64,000 bases of DNA from Oscillospiraceae bacterium. Lineage in GTDB: Bacteria > Bacillota > Clostridia > Oscillospirales > Ruminococcaceae. The stretch covers positions 248,001-312,000 of the forward strand of contig CADBXK010000001.1 in NCBI GenBank assembly GCA_902798695.1, given 5' to 3'. Shown here in pieces: positions 5,811-64,000 of this stretch. Numbering within the stretch: the first letter of the stretch is position 1; each line of letters begins with the position of its first letter. The position numbers were made by a program, and so were the translations under genes. The notes under the pieces are model-generated. The model did no database searches and was not told where the DNA came from. It was given only the letters and a program-made list of their open reading frames with translations.

Positions 5811-7475
5811 CTATGCAGCTTTTCTTGATCCATTCAAAACAAAATTATCCGAAATATGCTTCATTTGATCTAAATATGAAATTTTGTTATTTTCATCTTT
5901 ATTTATTAAGGTAGCTAAGCATATCTCTGGTTCATGCATTGCAATTATATTGTCAATATTTTTAATGAAAATATAGAAATATCTATAATTGGCAATTTTA
6001 TTAACCGATATCAATAAATCATTAATGCCTTTTTCTAACTCATCTACTTCTTCTCTGCTAACTTGCTTAGCAGGATCTATTTTACTTTGCTTCAAATTGT
6101 ATTCTAAAAAAGTGCTTTCAACAACACTTCTAACTATTTTTTTTAACTTAGAATTACTAATTGCCGCCTTTCCAACTAAAGCCGATTTACTATTTTCATC
6201 TAAAAATATCTCTAAAACATTACGCAATGCTTTCATAAATATTTCATCCGATTGAATAAGACCTACAAATCGAGCAACAACTTCTTCATGCTCAGAATAT
6301 GCTAATCGTTTATATTTCGCAATATTTGCAATACGCATACGTTTATCATTAGAGTATTTTTCAAAAATACTATTGGATATCATTTTGAAAAATTCATTTA
6401 AAAATTTAGACTGCGTACTGATATCCTCTGAAAACCAATTACAACCATATGTTTGAAACTTATCAGCTTTATACTCCACTTTATTTTTACCATGAATATT
6501 AACACACATTTTACTCAAAACATCTTTTACTTTTAAAATTTCTTCAGAATTTTTTTCTTCAAGAAGTTTATGGTCTATTCCTGGTCTTACAAATCCCCAT
6601 TCTCTTAACGCTAATTTAGTAACAAAATCATCATCATTAATTATATTATGAATATTATAATATTTTCCACACTTATTACTTATTACATCACTATAGCCCA
6701 TAGGTGCTTCAAATGTGTAAGTATATATATCATCTTGAGATATGTTTATGTTTTTATTATAGGAATCCAAAATTCCTTCACAATCATATACATTACAAGA
6801 ATCATTATATAACTTTCCAACCAACCCTGCTACTGCTCCACCTCTACTATATCCAACTATCCAAAATTTTACATTTTTTTCAATTCCTTCAGTACCATTA
6901 ATATAATTATCCACAAAATTTTTAACCACTCTAGCTGCATTGTCAAATCCACGATGATTACCAACAGAACCTATTAACATATTATTGGCCCACTCAGCTT
7001 CATATCCTCCTCCTCTAACTACAATAGGAATCAATGTATATTTTCTACCATCAATATATATTTGTTTATTAGCTGTTGCAACTCCAATAGTTTTGAGTGT
7101 AGGTTTTTTTTCAAAATCACTATTTACTTCTATATTTTTAAAACCTATATCTTTAAGCAACTTTTTTACATTTTTACTTTGATTTTTATAATCAGTTCCC
7201 AAACTTCCTTTATTAGCAAATGCGGAAAGTTCTAGACAAAGTGACATTGTAGCCAAACTTGAATTATATTGCGTTGCAGAATCTTTAAAATATAAATCAC
7301 TATAAACATACGGTAGTTTGTTATATGTGTCAGATTCTTTTTGAAACACACCAGAAATACTATAAAATTCAGGATAATTAGCATTTCCACAGCCATAAAC
7401 ATTAAAAAACATTGTAAAAATTAACATTAAAGAAATTACAAGAGAAAGGCAATTAATTGTTTTTGATTTTCCCAT
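5811..7475 (-). CDS. Secreted class 3 lipase-like serine hydrolase, possible lipoprotein (paralogue A)
   Basis: A 554-residue exported protein. The ATG after GTGAGGAG gives a basic start, a hydrophobic core (residues 10-27) and VYGC, a weak lipobox with Cys29, so it may be a lipoprotein. The hydrolase core has IVGYSRGGA with nucleophile Ser210, then NIINDDDFVT and RPGIDHKL, which I read as the acid and His of a class 3 lipase-like (Mbeg1-like) triad. The region from residue 50 on aligns with the downstream paralogue: YVYSDLYFKDSATQYNSSLA against the matching segment there, and IPIVVRGGGYE against IPVVIRGGGYE. The C-terminal 250 residues are helical and lack the repeats of the paralogue. Substrate unknown; a phospholipid or other ester outside the cell is the natural guess. 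It has its own terminator and is probably monocistronic. Confidence 0.7.
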   Translation of the reverse strand: MGKSKTINCLSLVISLMLIFTMFFNVYGCGNANYPEFYSISGVFQKESDTYNKLPYVYSDLYFKDSATQYNSSLATMSLCLELSAFANKGSLGTDYKNQSKNVKKLLKDIGFKNIEVNSDFEKKPTLKTIGVATANKQIYIDGRKYTLIPIVVRGGGYEAEWANNMLIGSVGNHRGFDNAARVVKNFVDNYINGTEGIEKNVKFWIVGYSRGGAVAGLVGKLYNDSCNVYDCEGILDSYNKNINISQDDIYTYTFEAPMGYSDVISNKCGKYYNIHNIINDDDFVTKLALREWGFVRPGIDHKLLEEKNSEEILKVKDVLSKMCVNIHGKNKVEYKADKFQTYGCNWFSEDISTQSKFLNEFFKMISNSIFEKYSNDKRMRIANIAKYKRLAYSEHEEVVARFVGLIQSDEIFMKALRNVLEIFLDENSKSALVGKAAISNSKLKKIVRSVVESTFLEYNLKQSKIDPAKQVSREEVDELEKGINDLLISVNKIANYRYFYIFIKNIDNIIAMHEPEICLATLINKDENNKISYLDQMKHISDNFVLNGSRKAA

Positions 7476-7556
7476 TTTAAACAACTCCTCACTCACAATA
7501 AAACACTTCAAATTAATTTTTAATATTAATTTAATTTTATCACTAATATATTGATA

Positions 7557-7581
7557 AAATATTAACAAATTGTTAATATTT
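7557..7581. repeat. 25-bp perfect inverted repeat upstream of hydrolase-like gene A
   Basis: Two 12-base arms, AAATATTAACAA and its exact complement, flank one central base, about 82 bp before the start codon. A second imperfect inverted repeat (ATTTTATCA with TGATAAAAT) lies nearer the gene. They could be an operator or a 5' mRNA hairpin. The region is very AT-rich, so some symmetry is expected by chance. Confidence 0.5.
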
Positions 7582-7640
7582 AGAAAATACGTAAATTTGC
7601 AATATATAAACCTGAGTATTTTTGTATATTTTAAACAAAT

Positions 7641-7672
7641 AAAAATCTCGTGTTTCCTAGCACGAGATTTTT
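7641..7672 (-). terminator. Intrinsic terminator of the second hydrolase-like gene
   Basis: Perfect 12-bp arms (AAAAATCTCGTG and complement) around an 8-nt loop, ending in a T run on the minus strand, 17 bp beyond the stop of the gene. It separates the two paralogues into different transcripts. Confidence 0.85.
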
Positions 7673-7688
7673 ATTGAACTATGATACA

Positions 7689-9983
7689 CTATTTAAACCA
7701 TCTTCTAATCTTATAGGCACCCCAATCTGTAGTTGTATCAATCATATTTTTAATTTCGTCGCGAGGAGAAAATACAAATCTAAATCCAGTCTTAACTCCT
7801 TTACCAACCGTACCAACAACTCTTCTAATAAAACCTTTTTTTGTTGCTTCTTCCTTTTCAGATCTTTGTTTTAAAAATGCCTCTGCTCTCTTAAGACCAT
7901 ATTCAGTATTATCTTTATCTACTTGCACAAAAGCATCTTTTTTCTTTACTTCATTTGCTTCTTCTTCCATATCTTCAAAGTTATTTATAAAATTAGAGTT
8001 TTTCTCTATCTCTCCTGTCAAATCTTCAAACTTATCTTTTTCCTTTATTTCATTTGCTTCTTTTTCCATATCTTCAAAGTTATTTATAAAATTAGAGTTT
8101 TTCTCTATCTCTCCTGTCAAATCTTCAAACTCATCCACAAACTCAGATTTTTTATCTTCTTTCTTTTCTTTACTTACTTTTTCAATTTCAGCATCATCAA
8201 AACAATCTTTCCAATCATCATTATCATTCATTAGTTCATCTATTTCATTTTGTATTTTGTTAATTTCATTAAAATAATCATTATTTATCTTTTTCATTTG
8301 TTCAATATATAGCGATTTGTTCTTATCTTTACTAATTAAAGTGGCTAAATGCAATTCAGGCTGATGCATTTTAAATGTTGCCGATGCATTAACAAAAGCA
8401 TAAAATAAAAATGGAAGTTCTGTATTGTGATCTAATCCTTTAGCAAGATCAAGTATTGCTTGTCTTTCTTCAGTACTAAGACTTATTTTCATATCTTTAC
8501 TGAATCTATCTACAATATTATTAAATGGTGCATCAATATAATTTGTATTAAAAGCTGCGCCTGCTCCTAATCTAGCAATATCCACTTTACAATTTCCCAA
8601 TATGTCATTTTTTGCGTTACTAAATTCTTGCTGTTTTGACATAATAGAAACAGCTAATTTCGATACAGTTTCCTGATATCTATCAGCAAAAAACGCTCTA
8701 TTGGTCTTATATTGCCAATCTTTGCTCAGTTTACTTCCACGTACCCTAGTCAATGCTCTATTGAAAATACCTGCCATATTATCGCCAAGTTCAGAATAGT
8801 TATTAATTCCCTGCAGTCTACTTGCATTAAGCTTATCTACATATCTAACTGCATACTCTTTACTTTTTTTCTTTTCTTCTTCACTTTTTTTGTCCCATTT
8901 TGCCTTACTTACTTTATTTATTAAAAATTCATGTAAAATAGCTTCCATGTTTTTAACATCACTATCTTTCCTGCCTTCTAACAATTTATGGTCTACTCCA
9001 GGTCTAGCAAATCCCCAATCTTTAGGTGCAACCTTAGTAACAAAATCATCATCATTTATTGTATTATGAATATTTTCATAAATTGCTTTATCACTTTTTT
9101 CTGATTTAGAATATGGTATATTTCCTTTATATTCTTTCAAACCAGACCCATTAATTATATTCATACCCATTGGAGCTTCAAAAGTATACACATACAAATC
9201 ATTAGGGTTCATTTCAATTTCGCTTCCATACTTGTTTAAAGTACGTTTTCTTTCTTTATTAACATAACTATTATAATAGTCTTCATTACTAAAGTTTTTA
9301 CTATCTTTGTCTAATTCATTTAATGTTGAAGTAAAATCATTATTATACTTAACACCTAGCAAACTAGCAGTTGCTCCACCTCGACTATATCCAACTATCC
9401 AAAGCTTTACTTTACCTTGAATTTTTTTATCTTTTATATAATCATCAACGAATGCTTTAGCTTTTGTTGCAGCTGTATTAAAGCCTTCATGGTCTCCCGA
9501 CTTTCCAACTTTAGCATTACCGCCCCACTCGTTTTCATATCCGCCGCCTCTTATAACTACCGGTATAAGAGTATATTCCTCATTATTTGATTTTATCTTC
9601 TTGCTAGCAGCCAAAACACCGATACTATCAGCTGTAGTTTTCTGTTTGTAACCATCATTTTCTTGTATGTCACCAAAGCCCAACTCGCCTAGTGCCTTTT
9701 TTGCATTCTTAGCCTGATCACTATAATCTAATCTGTCTGCAAAGCCAGATAATTCTAAAGCTAACGAAGCTGTAGCAAGTGATTCATTATATTCAAACGC
9801 ACTTTTATTAAAGTAATCATCATTATAAATCAATGGCAATTTCTTAAGATTTGATGATCCTATTTGAATAGTAATAGCTTTATTGCTTCCCCCATTAGCT
9901 GAAACAACTAAACCGGGCGTTAAACAAGTTGTAACAGATAAAACTGTAGCTATCATTCTTTTAACATTTTTTAACATTCTCAT
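7689..9983 (-). CDS. Secreted class 3 lipase-like serine hydrolase with C-terminal repeats (paralogue B)
   Basis: A 764-residue exported protein paralogous to the preceding hydrolase. Residues 1-29 form a signal peptide with likely cleavage after VSA. The hydrolase core matches paralogue A, with IVGYSRGGA (Ser200), NTINDDDFVTKVAPKDWGF and RPGVDHKLLEG, which resemble the Ser, acid and His region of class 3 lipases. It then carries a lysine-rich insert, a long helical region, and two near-identical 33-residue acidic repeats (residues about 617-678), and ends with a basic tail (GFIRRVVGTVGKGVKTGFRF). Acidic repeats plus a basic tail on a secreted enzyme suggest binding to a partner, perhaps host or cell surface, but this is inference. 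The ATG is preceded by TAGGAG at 10 nt. Confidence 0.72.
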   Translation of the reverse strand: MRMLKNVKRMIATVLSVTTCLTPGLVVSANGGSNKAITIQIGSSNLKKLPLIYNDDYFNKSAFEYNESLATASLALELSGFADRLDYSDQAKNAKKALGELGFGDIQENDGYKQKTTADSIGVLAASKKIKSNNEEYTLIPVVIRGGGYENEWGGNAKVGKSGDHEGFNTAATKAKAFVDDYIKDKKIQGKVKLWIVGYSRGGATASLLGVKYNNDFTSTLNELDKDSKNFSNEDYYNSYVNKERKRTLNKYGSEIEMNPNDLYVYTFEAPMGMNIINGSGLKEYKGNIPYSKSEKSDKAIYENIHNTINDDDFVTKVAPKDWGFARPGVDHKLLEGRKDSDVKNMEAILHEFLINKVSKAKWDKKSEEEKKKSKEYAVRYVDKLNASRLQGINNYSELGDNMAGIFNRALTRVRGSKLSKDWQYKTNRAFFADRYQETVSKLAVSIMSKQQEFSNAKNDILGNCKVDIARLGAGAAFNTNYIDAPFNNIVDRFSKDMKISLSTEERQAILDLAKGLDHNTELPFLFYAFVNASATFKMHQPELHLATLISKDKNKSLYIEQMKKINNDYFNEINKIQNEIDELMNDNDDWKDCFDDAEIEKVSKEKKEDKKSEFVDEFEDLTGEIEKNSNFINNFEDMEKEANEIKEKDKFEDLTGEIEKNSNFINNFEDMEEEANEVKKKDAFVQVDKDNTEYGLKRAEAFLKQRSEKEEATKKGFIRRVVGTVGKGVKTGFRFVFSPRDEIKNMIDTTTDWGAYKIRRWFK
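7951..8131 (-). repeat. Tandem 99-bp coding repeat (two copies)
   Basis: Two copies with a 99-bp period inside hydrolase-like gene B encode 33-residue units beginning FEDLTGEIEKNSNF and ending in acidic and lysine-rich residues. The DNA copies differ at only a few positions, so the duplication is recent or kept uniform. Confidence 0.9.
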
Positions 9984-20387: not shown

Positions 20388-21722
20388 CTATAATTTTTCC
20401 AAAAGTTCTTGACGCATATCCTCAAAACCAGGTTTACCCAACAAAGCAAACATATTTTTTTTGTAACTTTCCACCCCTGGTTGATTAAACGGATTAACCC
20501 CTAACAAATATCCTGAGATTGCACAAGCTTTTTCAAAAAAATATACTAAATACCCTATTTCATATTCATTGATTTCCGGTAATTCCAAGACAATATTAGG
20601 AACACCACCTTCAGTGTGAGCCAAAATAGTTCCTTCAAACGCCCTTCGATTTACCTGACTCATATTTTGATTAGACAAAAAATTTAACCCATCAAAATCA
20701 TTTTCATCTTCAAAAATATAAAAATCTTCTTTCGGCTTCTTTATATCCAAAACTGTCTCAAAAATAAACTTTGATCCATCTTGAATATATTGCCCAAGCG
20801 AATGCAAGTCCGTTGAAAACACAGCCGACGTAGGCAATATACCTTTGCCGTTCTTTCCTTCACTTTCTCCAAATAACTGCTTATACCACTCACTCATCAT
20901 TGTCATTGATGGTTCATAAGACACAAGCATCTCAACGTTTTTTCCTTTATTATATAAAACATTCCGTAAAGCTGCATATTTATAACAATCATTTTTATTG
21001 ATATCACAAACATTTAAATCCTCGCGTGCCTTTTTAGCACCACTCATTAAGCTAGCAATATCTAATCCAGCAACAGCTATTGGAAGCAATCCAACCGCAG
21101 TCAAAACTGAAAACCTGCCACCAACATCATCTGGAACTACAAACTGTTCATAACCATTTTTAATAGCTAATTCTTTCAATTTTCCCTTTTTAGCATCCGT
21201 TGTACAGTAAATTCTGTGCTTTGCTTCACCAACACCATATTTTTCTTCAAGCAATTTTTTAAAAACTCTAAATGCAATAGCTGGTTCAGTTGTTGTTCCA
21301 GACTTAGAGATAACATTAACAGAGACATCCTTACCATTGCAGAGGCTCAAAATTTCGTTTAAATATGTAGAGCTAATATTATTACCAACAAAATAAATTT
21401 TTGGTGCATCTTCTTTTAAAAGATTATACATTTGAGAATTCAAAGCCTCAATAACTGCTCTAGCCCCAAGATATGAACCACCAATCCCAATAACAACCAA
21501 AACATCAGAATCCTGTCTTATTTTTTCAGCAGCTAATTTTATTCTATTAAACTCTTCTATATCATAATTAATTGGCAAATCTAGCCATCCTAAAAATTCT
21601 TTACCCGCACCCGTTCTTTCATTTAAAGTCTCGTGAGCTGATCGAACCATAGGAAACATTTCAACCAATTCATTATCTGAAACAAATTTCTTAATATAGT
21701 TCGTATTTAAACAAACCGACAT
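20388..21722 (-). CDS. pgi: Glucose-6-phosphate isomerase
   Basis: Interconverts glucose 6-phosphate and fructose 6-phosphate. The 444-residue length is typical of the short Firmicute type. Seen are [18 protein letters not shown], the signature [29 protein letters not shown] and the C-terminal [20 protein letters not shown]. The chosen ATG follows GAGGTG at six bases; a longer frame would begin before the promoter-proximal leader. Its presence means sugars are still handled through upper glycolysis despite the nucleotide transporter. Confidence 0.96.
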
Positions 21723-21761
21723 ATTAAACACCTCAGTTAAATTTATTATATTCACCTTATA

Positions 21762-60366: not shown

Positions 60367-60420
60367 AAACAGGAACATTTTAATCCTATATATAGTTTAG
60401 GAGTTAAATGTTCCTATTTT
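60367..60420. terminator. Bidirectional terminator between the membrane protein and Nudix genes
   Basis: A long hairpin with 10-bp outer arms (AGGAACATTT) and further pairs inside, flanked by A- and T-runs, in the gap between convergent genes. Confidence 0.8.
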
Positions 60421-60448
60421 ATTATTTAATATATAAATTCCTTTTATG

Positions 60449-60976
60449 CTATAATTGGTTAGGCTGCTTGTTTAAATCTAAACTTATAGTCCTTTCAGAA
60501 AATTTGCCATTTAAAATATCAGGTAAATATTCGGGTAAATCTATAGGATATATAATATCTGAACTATATTTTATTTCATTCAAGGAAAACCATTTAAATG
60601 ATTTTATACTTTCCTTTTCTTCATTAATTAAATTTTTTAAACTAATATTATTGTTTATGGCCTTAGCAACTATAAATTTTTGATTTATCGTAGTTTCTAT
60701 TCCGTGCATATTCAATTTCAAAATACCCTCCCAAACTACATTGGGATAAAATTCAACATCACATTCTTTCAAACCAGTTTCTTCAAATAATTCACGCTTA
60801 GCTGCTTGAAATATCTTTTCACCTTTCTCTATTTTTCCTCCTACTAACTGCCAAAATCTTCCATTATAATTACCATCTAAATTTTTTATTTTTTCATCAT
60901 CAGTAGACAAAAGCAATAGTTCTTTTCTATCATTTATCAATATTATTTTTACACTATTTCTTATTTCATTATTCAT
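60449..60976 (-). CDS. Nudix hydrolase
   Basis: A 175-residue pyrophosphohydrolase with a complete Nudix box (GKIEKGEKIFQAAKRELFEETGL). The beta strands before it (LLLSTDDEKIKNLDGNYNGRFWQLVGG) resemble nucleotide-sanitising or IDI-like members. Substrate not deducible. A Nudix gene next to a nucleotide transporter could hint at nucleotide clean-up, but the two have separate transcripts. Confidence 0.9.
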   Translation of the reverse strand: MNNEIRNSVKIILINDRKELLLLSTDDEKIKNLDGNYNGRFWQLVGGKIEKGEKIFQAAKRELFEETGLKECDVEFYPNVVWEGILKLNMHGIETTINQKFIVAKAINNNISLKNLINEEKESIKSFKWFSLNEIKYSSDIIYPIDLPEYLPDILNGKFSERTISLDLNKQPNQL

Positions 60977-61018
60977 ATGTTTAACCTATCCTTCAGTTCT
61001 TATCTTATTATAAAAAAT

Positions 61019-61061
61019 AAAAAGTTTCAGCGATAAATGTAATTAATCACCAAAACTTTTT
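61019..61061 (-). terminator. Intrinsic terminator of the nucleotide transporter gene
   Basis: A 16-bp stem (AAAAAGTTTTGGTGAT, with some G-U pairs in RNA) with an 11-nt loop, followed by a T run on the minus strand, 43 bp after the stop. Confidence 0.88.
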
Positions 61062-61103
61062 AGGGTAAATTTTACCTAACGCCAATCAAGCTTTCAAAAT
61101 ATA

Positions 61104-62453
61104 CTAACATACTATAGTGTTTGTATCGACAGCTTTCTTGTATGTTCTTCCAAGATATAGAGCGATAAGGAACCATGCAACAACAAACACAAATCCTAAA
61201 CCACTAGTAAGCAAACGATATGTTGCTGTTCCCAAAGCTGAGTATAACATGTTCACACCAGCTCCACCTTCTTTGGAAAATCTTGAGCCAAATGTCTCAA
61301 CCCAAGCCTGTGCTTTAGATTTTGCATCCTTACTTGTTGGTATGTATAACTGTTTAAGTGCTGGTCCACTCAAAGCATAGTTAATAGCTTTAGATGCAAT
61401 CATCAAACAGAATAAGAATGTCAAACTATTAATAGTTAAGAATCCAAATATTGCTAAACCAAACATTACAGGAACTAATGATAATGCAATGCCTATACCC
61501 AACTTCTTAGTAATATTACTAATTCCCAAAAGCAAGAATATCAAAGAAACTGTGTTTACACATGAACTATAAGTTGCTAAATATCCACTAAGTTCTACTC
61601 CACTATATACCTGACTAGCTGATAATTTAAAGTTGAAGTCAAAAACAGTAACTATAAACTCAAAAAAGAAGTTAACAGCAAACATTCCAAGTAAGTATTT
61701 ATGAGTAAATAACAACTTTAAACCTTCTGTAAATCCTGTTTTTTCTTTCTTTTTAGAACTATCATCGGTTTCTTCTTTAACAACTGACTCTAACAAATCA
61801 CTAGGCGTACTTCTTAAAAGATGTCTTACCAAAAGTGTAACAACTACAGTTAAAACTGCCAAAACAACTATAGATATAGCATCTGATTTTACTCCGATAC
61901 TTATAGGCAATTTAATAAGCAATAGAGGAAGAAGCACTCCACCTAACTGACCAAATGTATATATTAAAGGAAAACCTTGTTTAGCTGACTCAGCTTTAGT
62001 AATATCCGTTGCAAACGACCAAAACAAAGCAATTATTATCGAACCAAAACTTTCAACAAAGAAATACCAAAAATAACCAAGAACAACAGTCACAGTGCTA
62101 GGCTGAATACTTCCACTCTGGAAAGCCCAAATAAACACTGAATAAAGTAACATCACAGAACCAAAATAAACTGGTGGCATCAACGACAACAACTTAGACT
62201 TAGAAACAAAGTCCAAAATCTTAGTATAAATAGCCACAAAAAATATCATACAAATAAGCGAAACAGTCTTAGCATAAGGCTGATAAACTGCACCAACTAA
62301 TGAATTAAACAAAGAATCTTTAAGTGGTCTCATAGACCAATAAATTCCAATCAACATAAAAAAGATTGTACCCATACGCACAAATTTTCTAAATTCTCTC
62401 TCTTCGAATTTACCAAAATTAAACTTGCATATAGTCATTAAAAGCTTTATCAT
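61104..62453 (-). CDS. tlc: NTT-family nucleotide transporter (ADP/ATP translocase type)
   Basis: A 449-residue polytopic protein with about eleven or twelve membrane spans. Family marks: RPLKDSLF (Lys45), FFVESFGSIIIALFWSFATDIT (Glu134) and the C-terminal YIPTSKDAKSKAQAWVETFGSR followed by SKEGGAG. These correspond to the signature regions of Rickettsia Tlc, Chlamydia Npt and plant plastid NTT carriers, which exchange host ATP for ADP or import nucleotides. The position equivalent to the essential second Glu (K-E-M in the family) is Gln368, so substrate or counter-exchange may differ. The protein is about 50 residues shorter than Rickettsia Tlc1. It has a consensus promoter, a long leader and its own terminator. 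Horizontal origin is likely. Confidence 0.92.
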   Translation of the reverse strand: MIKLLMTICKFNFGKFEEREFRKFVRMGTIFFMLIGIYWSMRPLKDSLFNSLVGAVYQPYAKTVSLICMIFFVAIYTKILDFVSKSKLLSLMPPVYFGSVMLLYSVFIWAFQSGSIQPSTVTVVLGYFWYFFVESFGSIIIALFWSFATDITKAESAKQGFPLIYTFGQLGGVLLPLLLIKLPISIGVKSDAISIVVLAVLTVVVTLLVRHLLRSTPSDLLESVVKEETDDSSKKKEKTGFTEGLKLLFTHKYLLGMFAVNFFFEFIVTVFDFNFKLSASQVYSGVELSGYLATYSSCVNTVSLIFLLLGISNITKKLGIGIALSLVPVMFGLAIFGFLTINSLTFLFCLMIASKAINYALSGPALKQLYIPTSKDAKSKAQAWVETFGSRFSKEGGAGVNMLYSALGTATYRLLTSGLGFVFVVAWFLIALYLGRTYKKAVDTNTIVC

Positions 62454-62617
62454 TTAATTACCCCTCCGAAATTATATATTTAATTAAAATTTCAACAATA
62501 CACCAAAATGTAAAATTATCCCTCCAATCTACACACATTAAATTATGTTTTGAAGCATTGTTTCCAATAATAATTATAATATACAAAAACAATTATGTAT
62601 TAAAAAACACACAAAAA

Positions 62618-62646
62618 TTAGTATACTTAAAAATTAAATATACTAA
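62618..62646 (-). promoter_or_regulatory. Hairpin with T run in the transporter leader (possible attenuator)
   Basis: Arms TTAGTATA and complement with a 13-nt loop; on the minus strand a TTTTTG follows. It lies between the promoter and the transporter start. The stem holds a single G-C pair, so it is weak. Confidence 0.35.
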
Positions 62647-62683
62647 AAAACGAACACATCACTTCAATAAATTTTACTATGTA

Positions 62684-62712
62684 ATTATATCTAATTTACC
62701 GCAACATGTCAA
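62684..62712 (-). promoter_or_regulatory. Consensus promoter of the nucleotide transporter
   Basis: TTGACA and TATAAT, both perfect, 17 bp apart on the minus strand. The predicted leader is about 220 nt. The 299-bp gap to the next gene holds this promoter, the weak hairpin and no other gene that I can see. Confidence 0.85.
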
Positions 62713-62752
62713 GGTTAAAAACAAAATTTAAATAAATCATTTTATGTTTTAA

Positions 62753-63415
62753 TTATATTTCCAAAACATATCCACATTTTCGTACAGTTTTAATATATTT
62801 TTGAGCATATGATATTTTTTGTCTTAATCGCTTAATATGCGTATCAACTGTTCTGACATTACCTGTGTAATCTATTCCCCAAACCATTTTTAAAATCTGA
62901 TCTCTGCTTAAAATTTTCCCCTGATTTTCAATCAAACAACAAATCAAATCATACTCTTTTAATGTCAATTTGCATTTGTTATCATCAATATATACACTAT
63001 GTTCCTTACATATAACACGAATTTTTCCAATTTCAATTTCATTTTTATTTATCTTTCCAATTTTATTTAAAACCTCATTAATTCTACACAACAAAAACTT
63101 CATAGAAAATGGCTTAGTTATATATTCAGGTATATATTTTTTATACATTTCTATTTTTCTATAATCATTACCTTTCGTAGCAAGTAAAATCATCGATATA
63201 TTACGCTTCAAGCGAGTATACAAAACTATTTCATTTATACTCATATCCATCATATCTATGTCTAATATCAATAAATGATATGAATTTACATATAAGCTAT
63301 TTTTTAACTCTTTTACGTCAGACACTTCAGTTATATTATAACCTTCCTTCTTTAAACAACTATGCATTAACATTCTTAATTTCTGATTATTTTCAGCTAA
63401 TAATATATTTATCAT
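62753..63415 (-). CDS. OmpR/PhoB family response regulator with altered receiver
   Basis: A 220-residue two-domain regulator. The receiver has Asp52 (LLILD) and Lys101 (ITKPF), but the acidic pair is Glu8-Asn9 in place of two Asp and the conserved Thr/Ser is Ala79, so phosphorylation may be weak. The C-terminal winged helix is typical (LTLKEYDLICCLIENQGKILSRDQI, RTVDTHIKRLRQKI, VRKCGYVLEI). No histidine kinase is adjacent. Confidence 0.9.
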   Translation of the reverse strand: MINILLAENNQKLRMLMHSCLKKEGYNITEVSDVKELKNSLYVNSYHLLILDIDMMDMSINEIVLYTRLKRNISMILLATKGNDYRKIEMYKKYIPEYITKPFSMKFLLCRINEVLNKIGKINKNEIEIGKIRVICKEHSVYIDDNKCKLTLKEYDLICCLIENQGKILSRDQILKMVWGIDYTGNVRTVDTHIKRLRQKISYAQKYIKTVRKCGYVLEI

Positions 63416-63448
63416 TCACTCAAAAGCCTCCTCTTGGTGCCTCATAAA

Positions 63449-63664
63449 TCATTTACTAAACAAATCTTCTTGCATTTGATAAATCTCTCTTTTTTTTCTT
63501 AAAGTTTCACCACCATCAACAACACATGCATTATAATCTATATTCAAAACATCACCCTCACGTACATTTGGAGGAAGTTTATTTTTTAATATTTTTATTA
63601 TTTTAAAATCTTCACGTTCACAAATAGCAAAATTCCCTTCAAATCTGTCAACTGAAATGTACAT
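63449..63664 (-). CDS. DUF3006 family small protein
   Basis: A 71-residue acidic protein with VDRFEGNFAICERED, LPPNVREGDVLNIDY and a C-terminal charged helix, the DUF3006 layout. These proteins are usually encoded right after ComEC-like beta-lactamase-fold hydrolases, as here. The ATG six bases after AAAGGAAG overlaps the end of the upstream gene. Function unknown. Confidence 0.85.
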   Translation of the reverse strand: MYISVDRFEGNFAICEREDFKIIKILKNKLPPNVREGDVLNIDYNACVVDGGETLRKKREIYQMQEDLFSK

Positions 63665-64000
63665 GTTCTACTTCCTTTCTTTTTTGAGATTTTATATCAA
63701 AATCTTTACCATCAGTTGAAATTACAATTGTTCCATCACAATCTGTCCTATATATTTTAGCATCCTTTAATCTTTTCATAACCTCACCACTTGGATGCTT
63801 ATACATATTGTCTTTTCCAACTTCTATAATAAAAATTTTAGCACCAACAGCGTCTAATAATTTTTTTGTATTAGAAGTTTTACTACCGTGATGACTTAAT
63901 TTAAAAACATCAGATTTGATTAGTTGATTACTATTTAACAAATCTTTCTCCGCTTCTTTTTCCATATCGCCACAAAATAAAAAGGATCTATCCCTATATG
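63648..64000 (-). CDS. ComEC/Rec2-type metallo-beta-lactamase-fold protein, 5' end cut by window
   Basis: The last 117 codons of a hydrolase that continues beyond the window. FLFCGDMEKEAEKDLL (metal-binding Asp) and FKLSHHGSKTSN (His pair) match the hydrolase domain of ComEC-like proteins. The stand-alone form is a secreted hydrolase; the full ComEC form is a DNA-uptake channel. Which one applies cannot be told from the C-terminus alone. It overlaps the DUF3006 gene by 17 bp. Confidence 0.85.
   Translation of the reverse strand, partial: YRDRSFLFCGDMEKEAEKDLLNSNQLIKSDVFKLSHHGSKTSNTKKLLDAVGAKIFIIEVGKDNMYKHPSGEVMKRLKDAKIYRTDCDGTIVISTDGKDFDIKSQKRKEVEHVHFS

Follow-up and report, generated by a model that had tools for sequence, protein, structure and literature searches.

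Does a gene for a nucleotide carrier in a small clostridial genome mark a bacterium that draws energy from a eukaryotic host? The question is raised by a locus in a 64,000-nucleotide stretch of DNA (hereafter the window) from an Oscillospiraceae bacterium, which spans C1:248001-312000 of its own genome (G000; 1,183,915 bases, 99.16% complete) and has a GC content of 30.1%. An initial annotation had read the gene as an NTT nucleotide transporter lying between a consensus promoter and a terminator, and as the signature of an intracellular energy parasite.

61104..62453, minus strand: NTT-family (PF03219) carrier of 449 amino acids (aa), short subfamily, "Clostridia ATP/ADP translocase I" type, assigned by profile, fold and tree

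Family and branch of the carrier

The span 61104-62453 holds an uninterrupted 449-aa open reading frame on the minus strand, and the plus strand of the same span is full of stop codons. In the profile search the window protein matched PF03219 (TLC ATP/ADP transporter) with 86.6 bits against a curated cut-off of 21, and it also matched the solved NTTs AtNTT1 (4.8e-16) and C. pneumoniae NTT1 (5.8e-11). Four NTT motifs, including RPLKDSLF, FFVESFG and SKEGGAG, begin at residues 42, 131, 370 and 393, and the predicted fold is nearest to the solved NTTs. NTTs ranked first in both profile and fold searches, ahead of any other major facilitator family. These results confirm that the gene is a member of the NTT family in a Clostridia genome, as first annotated, and a cell-membrane location is predicted for the carrier.

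We then compared the protein with AtNTT1 and C. pneumoniae NTT1 (PDB 9j3j, 9j3l-9j3o), with AtNTT1 numbering derived from the 9j3j chain by an offset of 84. Among 102 sequences of the short NTT branch described below, E134 (equivalent to AtNTT1 E245) was kept in 101 and K394 (equivalent to K527) in all 102. The window protein thus resembles the solved NTTs in predicted fold and in these two residues; it differs from them in overall identity (about 20%), in a shorter chain, in the long-type motifs that the solved NTTs carry (judged by eye), and at the position of AtNTT1 E385, which is occupied by another acidic residue, D272, in 102/102 short-branch sequences. The ratio of nonsynonymous to synonymous substitution rates (dN/dS) of the gene was low, at 0.06, in a comparison of G000 with the same-genus genome G003 that also covered enolase and other genes.

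The nearest homologues are 92-94% identical to the window protein and the next 65-78%, followed by the protein of Ca. Improbicoccus pseudotrichonymphae at 63%. A quick NTT tree of 124 rows was built from 79 of 80 loci, 37 of 240 listed proteins, two same-genus loci, five other loci and the window protein; the locus left out, L017 (G004:C135), has an NTT gene whose frame is broken into 326 + 126 aa, which either sequencing error or decay would fit. In this tree the 28 clostridial rows of the window type form one clade (Shimodaira-Hasegawa-like approximate likelihood-ratio test support, SH-aLRT, 99-100) that includes the Ca. Improbicoccus protein, in agreement with the suggested link to Clostridia endosymbionts of termite-gut protists. 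The clade is surrounded by Holosporales, other Alphaproteobacteria and Chlamydiae, and an internal branch of great length sets the whole short branch (102 rows) apart from the long NTTs (22 rows).

NTTs in such Clostridia were already published in 2023 (PMC10579323, PMC10579272), so the occurrence noticed at this locus, while real, is not the first. PMC10579323, which named the "Clostridia ATP/ADP translocase I", reports translocases of two types, I and II, in Clostridia and fluorescence in situ hybridization of the bacteria inside termite protists. Its clade of small-genome Acutalibacteraceae includes metagenome-assembled genomes (MAGs) from ruminants and one member without the gene, and the type I translocase is placed there as gained in the common ancestor. 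Transfer of NTTs among flagellate symbionts has also been inferred (PMC11257099). Among the open-access literature that we screened by title and start of abstract, no other study of Clostridia of this kind in rumen protists was found.

Distribution of the gene and the metabolism kept beside it

PF03219 was matched in five of 61 genomes (G000 included) and in none of 14 control genomes, and all five belong to the genus of the window, in which they are five of eight species. A profile of the short type, A1, found the identical five genomes out of 21. A four-gene tree (RpoB, PGK, AICARFT and AckA; 10 rows, with AckA missing for G002 and G004) recovered the five carriers as a clade (99/98), sister to the three species without NTT (100/100); grouping these three with G002, G004 and G006 instead gave an approximately unbiased (AU) test p of 0.012. 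RpoB alone supported the carriers as one clade more weakly (79). The gene thus divides the genus cleanly into sister clades, five with and three without any PF03219 match, which is new and offers a natural comparison for asking if the gain of an NTT sets off genome reduction or comes after it. The named members of the genus are RUG genomes, which we take to come from cow rumen. Massilioclostridium coli was among the nearest named RpoB matches outside the genus, and Ca. Improbicoccus was absent from the best 120 RpoB matches.

Across the family, A1 was matched by 11 of 396 genomes: the five of the genus, five with distant long NTTs and one, G156, whose match was by eye an unrelated sugar-type carrier of the major facilitator superfamily (MFS) and was dropped. 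Since A1 is a model of the short type, the count of long NTTs may be too low. The five long-NTT genomes (G098, G255, G307, G117 and G203; loci L103-L107) belong to two other genera, g92 and g111, and make up a second reduced clade of 0.7-0.9 Mb in the same family; none of them had a short-type NTT match. Outside Clostridia, the nearest named matches of their NTTs are Holosporales and Chlamydiales proteins at about 48-50%. In a quick RpoB tree of 34 rows, the g92 and g111 clade was separate from the genus of the window, and a single clade of all 13 rows was rejected (AU p 2.5e-5).

We next examined energy and purine metabolism. In the eight species of the genus and in 13 other genomes of the family, respectively, matches were found for phosphoglycerate kinase (PGK; 8/8 and 12/13), phosphofructokinase (PFK; 8/8 and 13/13), acetate kinase (8/8, one partial, and 11/13), PPDK_N (8/8 and 11/13), AICAR formyltransferase (8/8 and 12/13), ATP-synt_ab (8/8 and 13/13), pyruvate kinase (PK; 2/8 and 11/13) and enolase (PF00113; 2/8 and 6/13). 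For the other NTT carriers of the genus, metabolism was followed as the families in these per-genome match counts. The three species without NTT (G001, G005 and G007; 0.8-1.6 Mb, 95-97% complete) had acetate kinase, PGK and ATP-synt_ab matches, and none to PF03219, enolase or pyruvate kinase.

In G000 itself, GAPDH, iPGM, PK, acetate kinase, PurF and AICAR formyltransferase exceeded their NCBIfam cut-offs, and TPI was named by eye. Its only two ATP-synt_ab genes both lie in a V-type operon. The purine operon comprises purE, C, F, M and N, an IMP cyclohydrolase-like gene, AICAR formyltransferase and purD (purE, C, M, N and D named by eye), and a CTP synthase was recognized by eye. Upper glycolysis is retained, and one of its genes lies in the window:

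20388..21755, minus strand: glucose-6-phosphate isomerase (PGI), intact, with 621 bits to 3ifs

The same 621 bits ruled out a degenerate PGI, which had been suspected from a low Pfam score.

Glycolysis is altered at enolase. The enolase genes of G000 (C1 about 770.5-771.8 kb; L095:6519-7751, minus strand) and of G003 (sister copy at L097:4661-5923, plus strand) are open frames with degenerate products, in which deletions or changes affect the SGASTG and GDEGG loops, two aspartates are replaced by N, a lysine by N or S, and a histidine by D. We take these residues to be two metal-ligand aspartates, the catalytic lysine and the histidine of the enzyme. The dN/dS of the gene was 0.30 (0.22-0.40) against 0.035-0.13 for seven other genes, which indicates relaxed and not neutral evolution. 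An intact enolase, as a profile match would suggest, was ruled out on the residues, and the product is possibly a moonlighting or a dying protein. The G000 sequence scores 300.5 on TIGR01060 "eno", half a bit above the cut-off of 300, and automatic annotation may therefore call the remnant enolase; "no enolase" and an automatic "enolase" label are both misleading for this genome.

These data bear on the published picture. The genome agrees with the small-genome clade of PMC10579323 in size (1.18 Mb; clade range 0.86-1.4 Mb), in AT-richness (window GC 30.1%; clade 30-39%), in having no working enolase and in the presence of ruminant MAGs in the clade, and its NTT lies on the same branch as that of Ca. 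Improbicoccus/Ca. Paraimprobicoccus. In contrast, the three genomes described there are reported to have no net ATP source, whereas AckA, PK, PGK, GAPDH and PFK are found here beside the degenerate enolase, and two of the three have no de novo purine genes, whereas a purine operon is found here. Ca. Vesiculincola pelomyxae (PMC10579272) is likewise one of the Acutalibacteraceae, with about 1.4 Mb, an NTT, acetate kinase and a V-type ATPase, and its authors propose host ATP as an additional source; unlike the window species, it has a free-living amoeba as host and is reported to have a complete glycolytic pathway and to make no nucleotides de novo, and the two NTTs are likened by description only. 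"Energy parasite" in the published sense of having no net ATP source would thus be an overstatement for a species in which PGK, GAPDH and pyruvate kinase accompany acetate kinase and a V-type ATPase. The 1.18-Mb genome is less stripped than its published relatives, keeping the purine operon and most enzymes of glycolysis as well as acetate kinase and the V-type ATPase. This lesser degree of reduction is new relative to print, as is the clean split of the genus; NTT-bearing small-genome Clostridia are extended to another genus, in which the carrier coexists with the cell's own energy and purine genes.

Substrate and host of the carrier

Many intracellular bacteria use carriers of this family to trade their ADP for the ATP of the host. 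The reading that we favor, with a probability of about 0.5, is that the carrier would likewise take up ATP from a protist host against bacterial ADP (and phosphate), probably as a supplement. It would exchange ATP for ADP rather than import nucleotides net, and the imported ATP would add to what acetate kinase and PGK could still make. The bacterium is likely gut-dwelling and would live inside a gut protist, probably of ruminants. The need is likely one of energy and not of building blocks, because genes for eight purine-synthesis steps are kept, glycolysis is interrupted at enolase and no ATP-synthase-type genes were found other than those of the V-type. The initial annotation described NTTs as known from intracellular lineages and took the gene to imply life inside a eukaryotic cell. 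NTTs are, however, described as broadly distributed in free-living bacteria too (PMC5381601); intracellular life is likely but is only something that we infer, because of this distribution and because three of the eight species of the genus have no PF03219 match.

Several observations weigh against ATP/ADP exchange with a protist host. The window protein is only 20-23% identical to the solved NTTs (19% for one entry). It scored 90.7 bits on TIGR00769 (NTP/NDP exchange transporter), under the cut-off of 387.2, whereas the long NTT P0121 of another genus scored 448.4; TIGR00769 was matched by 20/20 rows of A1, with a score known for the window protein alone. K62, present in 101/102 rows, is in register with AtNTT1 K155 by HMMER and three columns off by MAFFT. 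According to PMC5381601, the characterised NTTs belong to one subfamily with three exceptions, and PamNTT4, the sole characterised bacterial NTT outside it, carries NAD; the substrate of the short branch may differ from ATP. Among the short-branch rows, L050 comes from HS-T3, described as a Protochlamydia strain (PMC4319609). Acetate kinase, PGK, PK, PPDK, PFK and GAPDH are all in the genome, and three sister species of similar size gave no match in the PF03219 and A1 searches.

The enolase lesion belongs among these points. PF00113 was unmatched in seven of the 13 other family genomes, four of these being at least 90% complete (4/10 of the outside-genus relatives at least 90% complete), and a number of rumen bacteria in culture are reported to lack enolase (PMC6118326). 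We therefore rejected enolase absence as proof of energy parasitism: its loss is no mark of parasitism by itself, because it is also undetected in larger-genomed relatives and in rumen bacteria. The larger relatives without a PF00113 match are G014, G017, G018 and G020 (2.3-3.4 Mb, at least 91% complete).

The main rival, which we hold to be unlikely, is that the carrier is no ATP/ADP translocase and would bring in host NAD against ADP, the exchange presumed for PamNTT4 of Protochlamydia amoebophila. The short branch may be PamNTT4-like because the Protochlamydia row L050 lies in it. It is far from the long type, and both it and PamNTT4, which groups with uncharacterised bacterial NTTs, are outside the main characterised subfamily (PMC5381601); NTT4 is also given as an NAD carrier in PMC8231866. 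The species has retained genes of its own for ATP and purines, and NAD import would explain the PFK, PGK, acetate kinase and purine gene retained in the carriers, sister species of similar size doing without the gene, and the distance from solved and measured ATP/ADP exchangers. Against this, further non-canonical groups with Chlamydiae and Alphaproteobacteria exist (PMC5381601), PamNTT4 is set beside the branch by description only, a shared branch being a guess, and the equivalent of K527, tied to ATP binding in AtNTT1, is retained. "Energy parasite" stands or falls with the substrate of the short branch, a branch common to Holosporales, other Alphaproteobacteria and Chlamydiae; should the whole "Clostridia ATP/ADP translocase I" branch import host NAD, a doubtful proposition, that reading of the clade would fall.

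Other rivals have less in their favor. Net import by proton symport, for synthesis rather than energy, is favored by the symporters found besides exchangers among bacterial NTTs (PMC5113988) and by the lack of de novo nucleotide synthesis in the published relatives; the purine operon and CTP synthase of this genome make it improbable here. A free or surface-attached gut bacterium scavenging ATP or NAD from lysed cells would fit the retained glycolysis, acetate kinase and purine genes, the sister species without the gene and the NTTs of free-living bacteria (PMC5381601), but in two papers the localised Acutalibacteraceae with NTT sat inside protist cells (PMC10579323, PMC10579272) and the genome is just 1.18 Mb, and we consider this quite improbable. 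It is more improbable still that the protein is another MFS carrier with a non-nucleotide substrate such as a sugar phosphate: TIGR00893 (galactonate carrier) was weakly matched (0.00099; 8/20 rows of A1) and some relatives also match PF07690, whereas NTTs came first by a wide margin in profile and fold searches and the residues critical in AtNTT1 are retained.

Flanking signals and neighboring genes

The following features surround the NTT gene:

62684..62712, minus strand: sigma-70-type consensus promoter TTGACA-17-TATAAT, about 230 nt ahead of the start codon (12/12 match)
62461..62467, minus strand: GGAGGGG, ribosome-binding-site-like, 7 nt ahead of the ATG (read from sequence)
60449..60976, minus strand: NUDIX hydrolase, downstream of the NTT gene after a 127-nt gap (open reading frame and locus comparison)
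62753..63415, minus strand: OmpR-type response regulator, upstream of the NTT gene (locus comparison)
63648..63965, minus strand: metallo-beta-lactamase/ComEC-like protein, C-terminal part (named by eye)

The annotated consensus promoter is thus present and perfect, and the exact TTGACA-17-TATAAT occurs in four copies in the window, compared with 0.13 per 64 kb in simulation. The annotated terminator was not recovered in a scan of 60400-63700: the stem right after the NTT gene has no T-run, and the sole terminator-like site lies about 360 bases beyond the gene, within the next one. A NUDIX counterpart adjoins NTT in only one of 12 other NTT loci searched (L009), and the response regulator had no match in the 12. 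Both were dropped as NTT partners because they are not conserved across these loci, and the NUDIX hydrolase is likely a neighbor. A homologue of the ComEC-like protein lies upstream of NTT in four of the 12 (L009, L011, L012 and L017). Contamination was rejected as unlikely, since the contig with the NTT gene is 825 kb long, the genome is 99% complete and the gene shares this neighbor with the four loci.

Elsewhere in the window, two adjacent class-3 lipase-like proteins of 585 and 764 aa are encoded at 5811-9983 on the minus strand. They share 193 of 472 aligned residues and each has a GYSRG motif, and the 764-aa protein has a signal-peptide-like N-terminus. At L100:9524-17972 (minus strand; G000:C1 about 740-749 kb) lies a cluster of exported-looking, lysine- and glutamate-rich proteins of up to 960 aa, three of which were scanned against Pfam and gave no match; these exported-looking proteins are candidates for host interaction.
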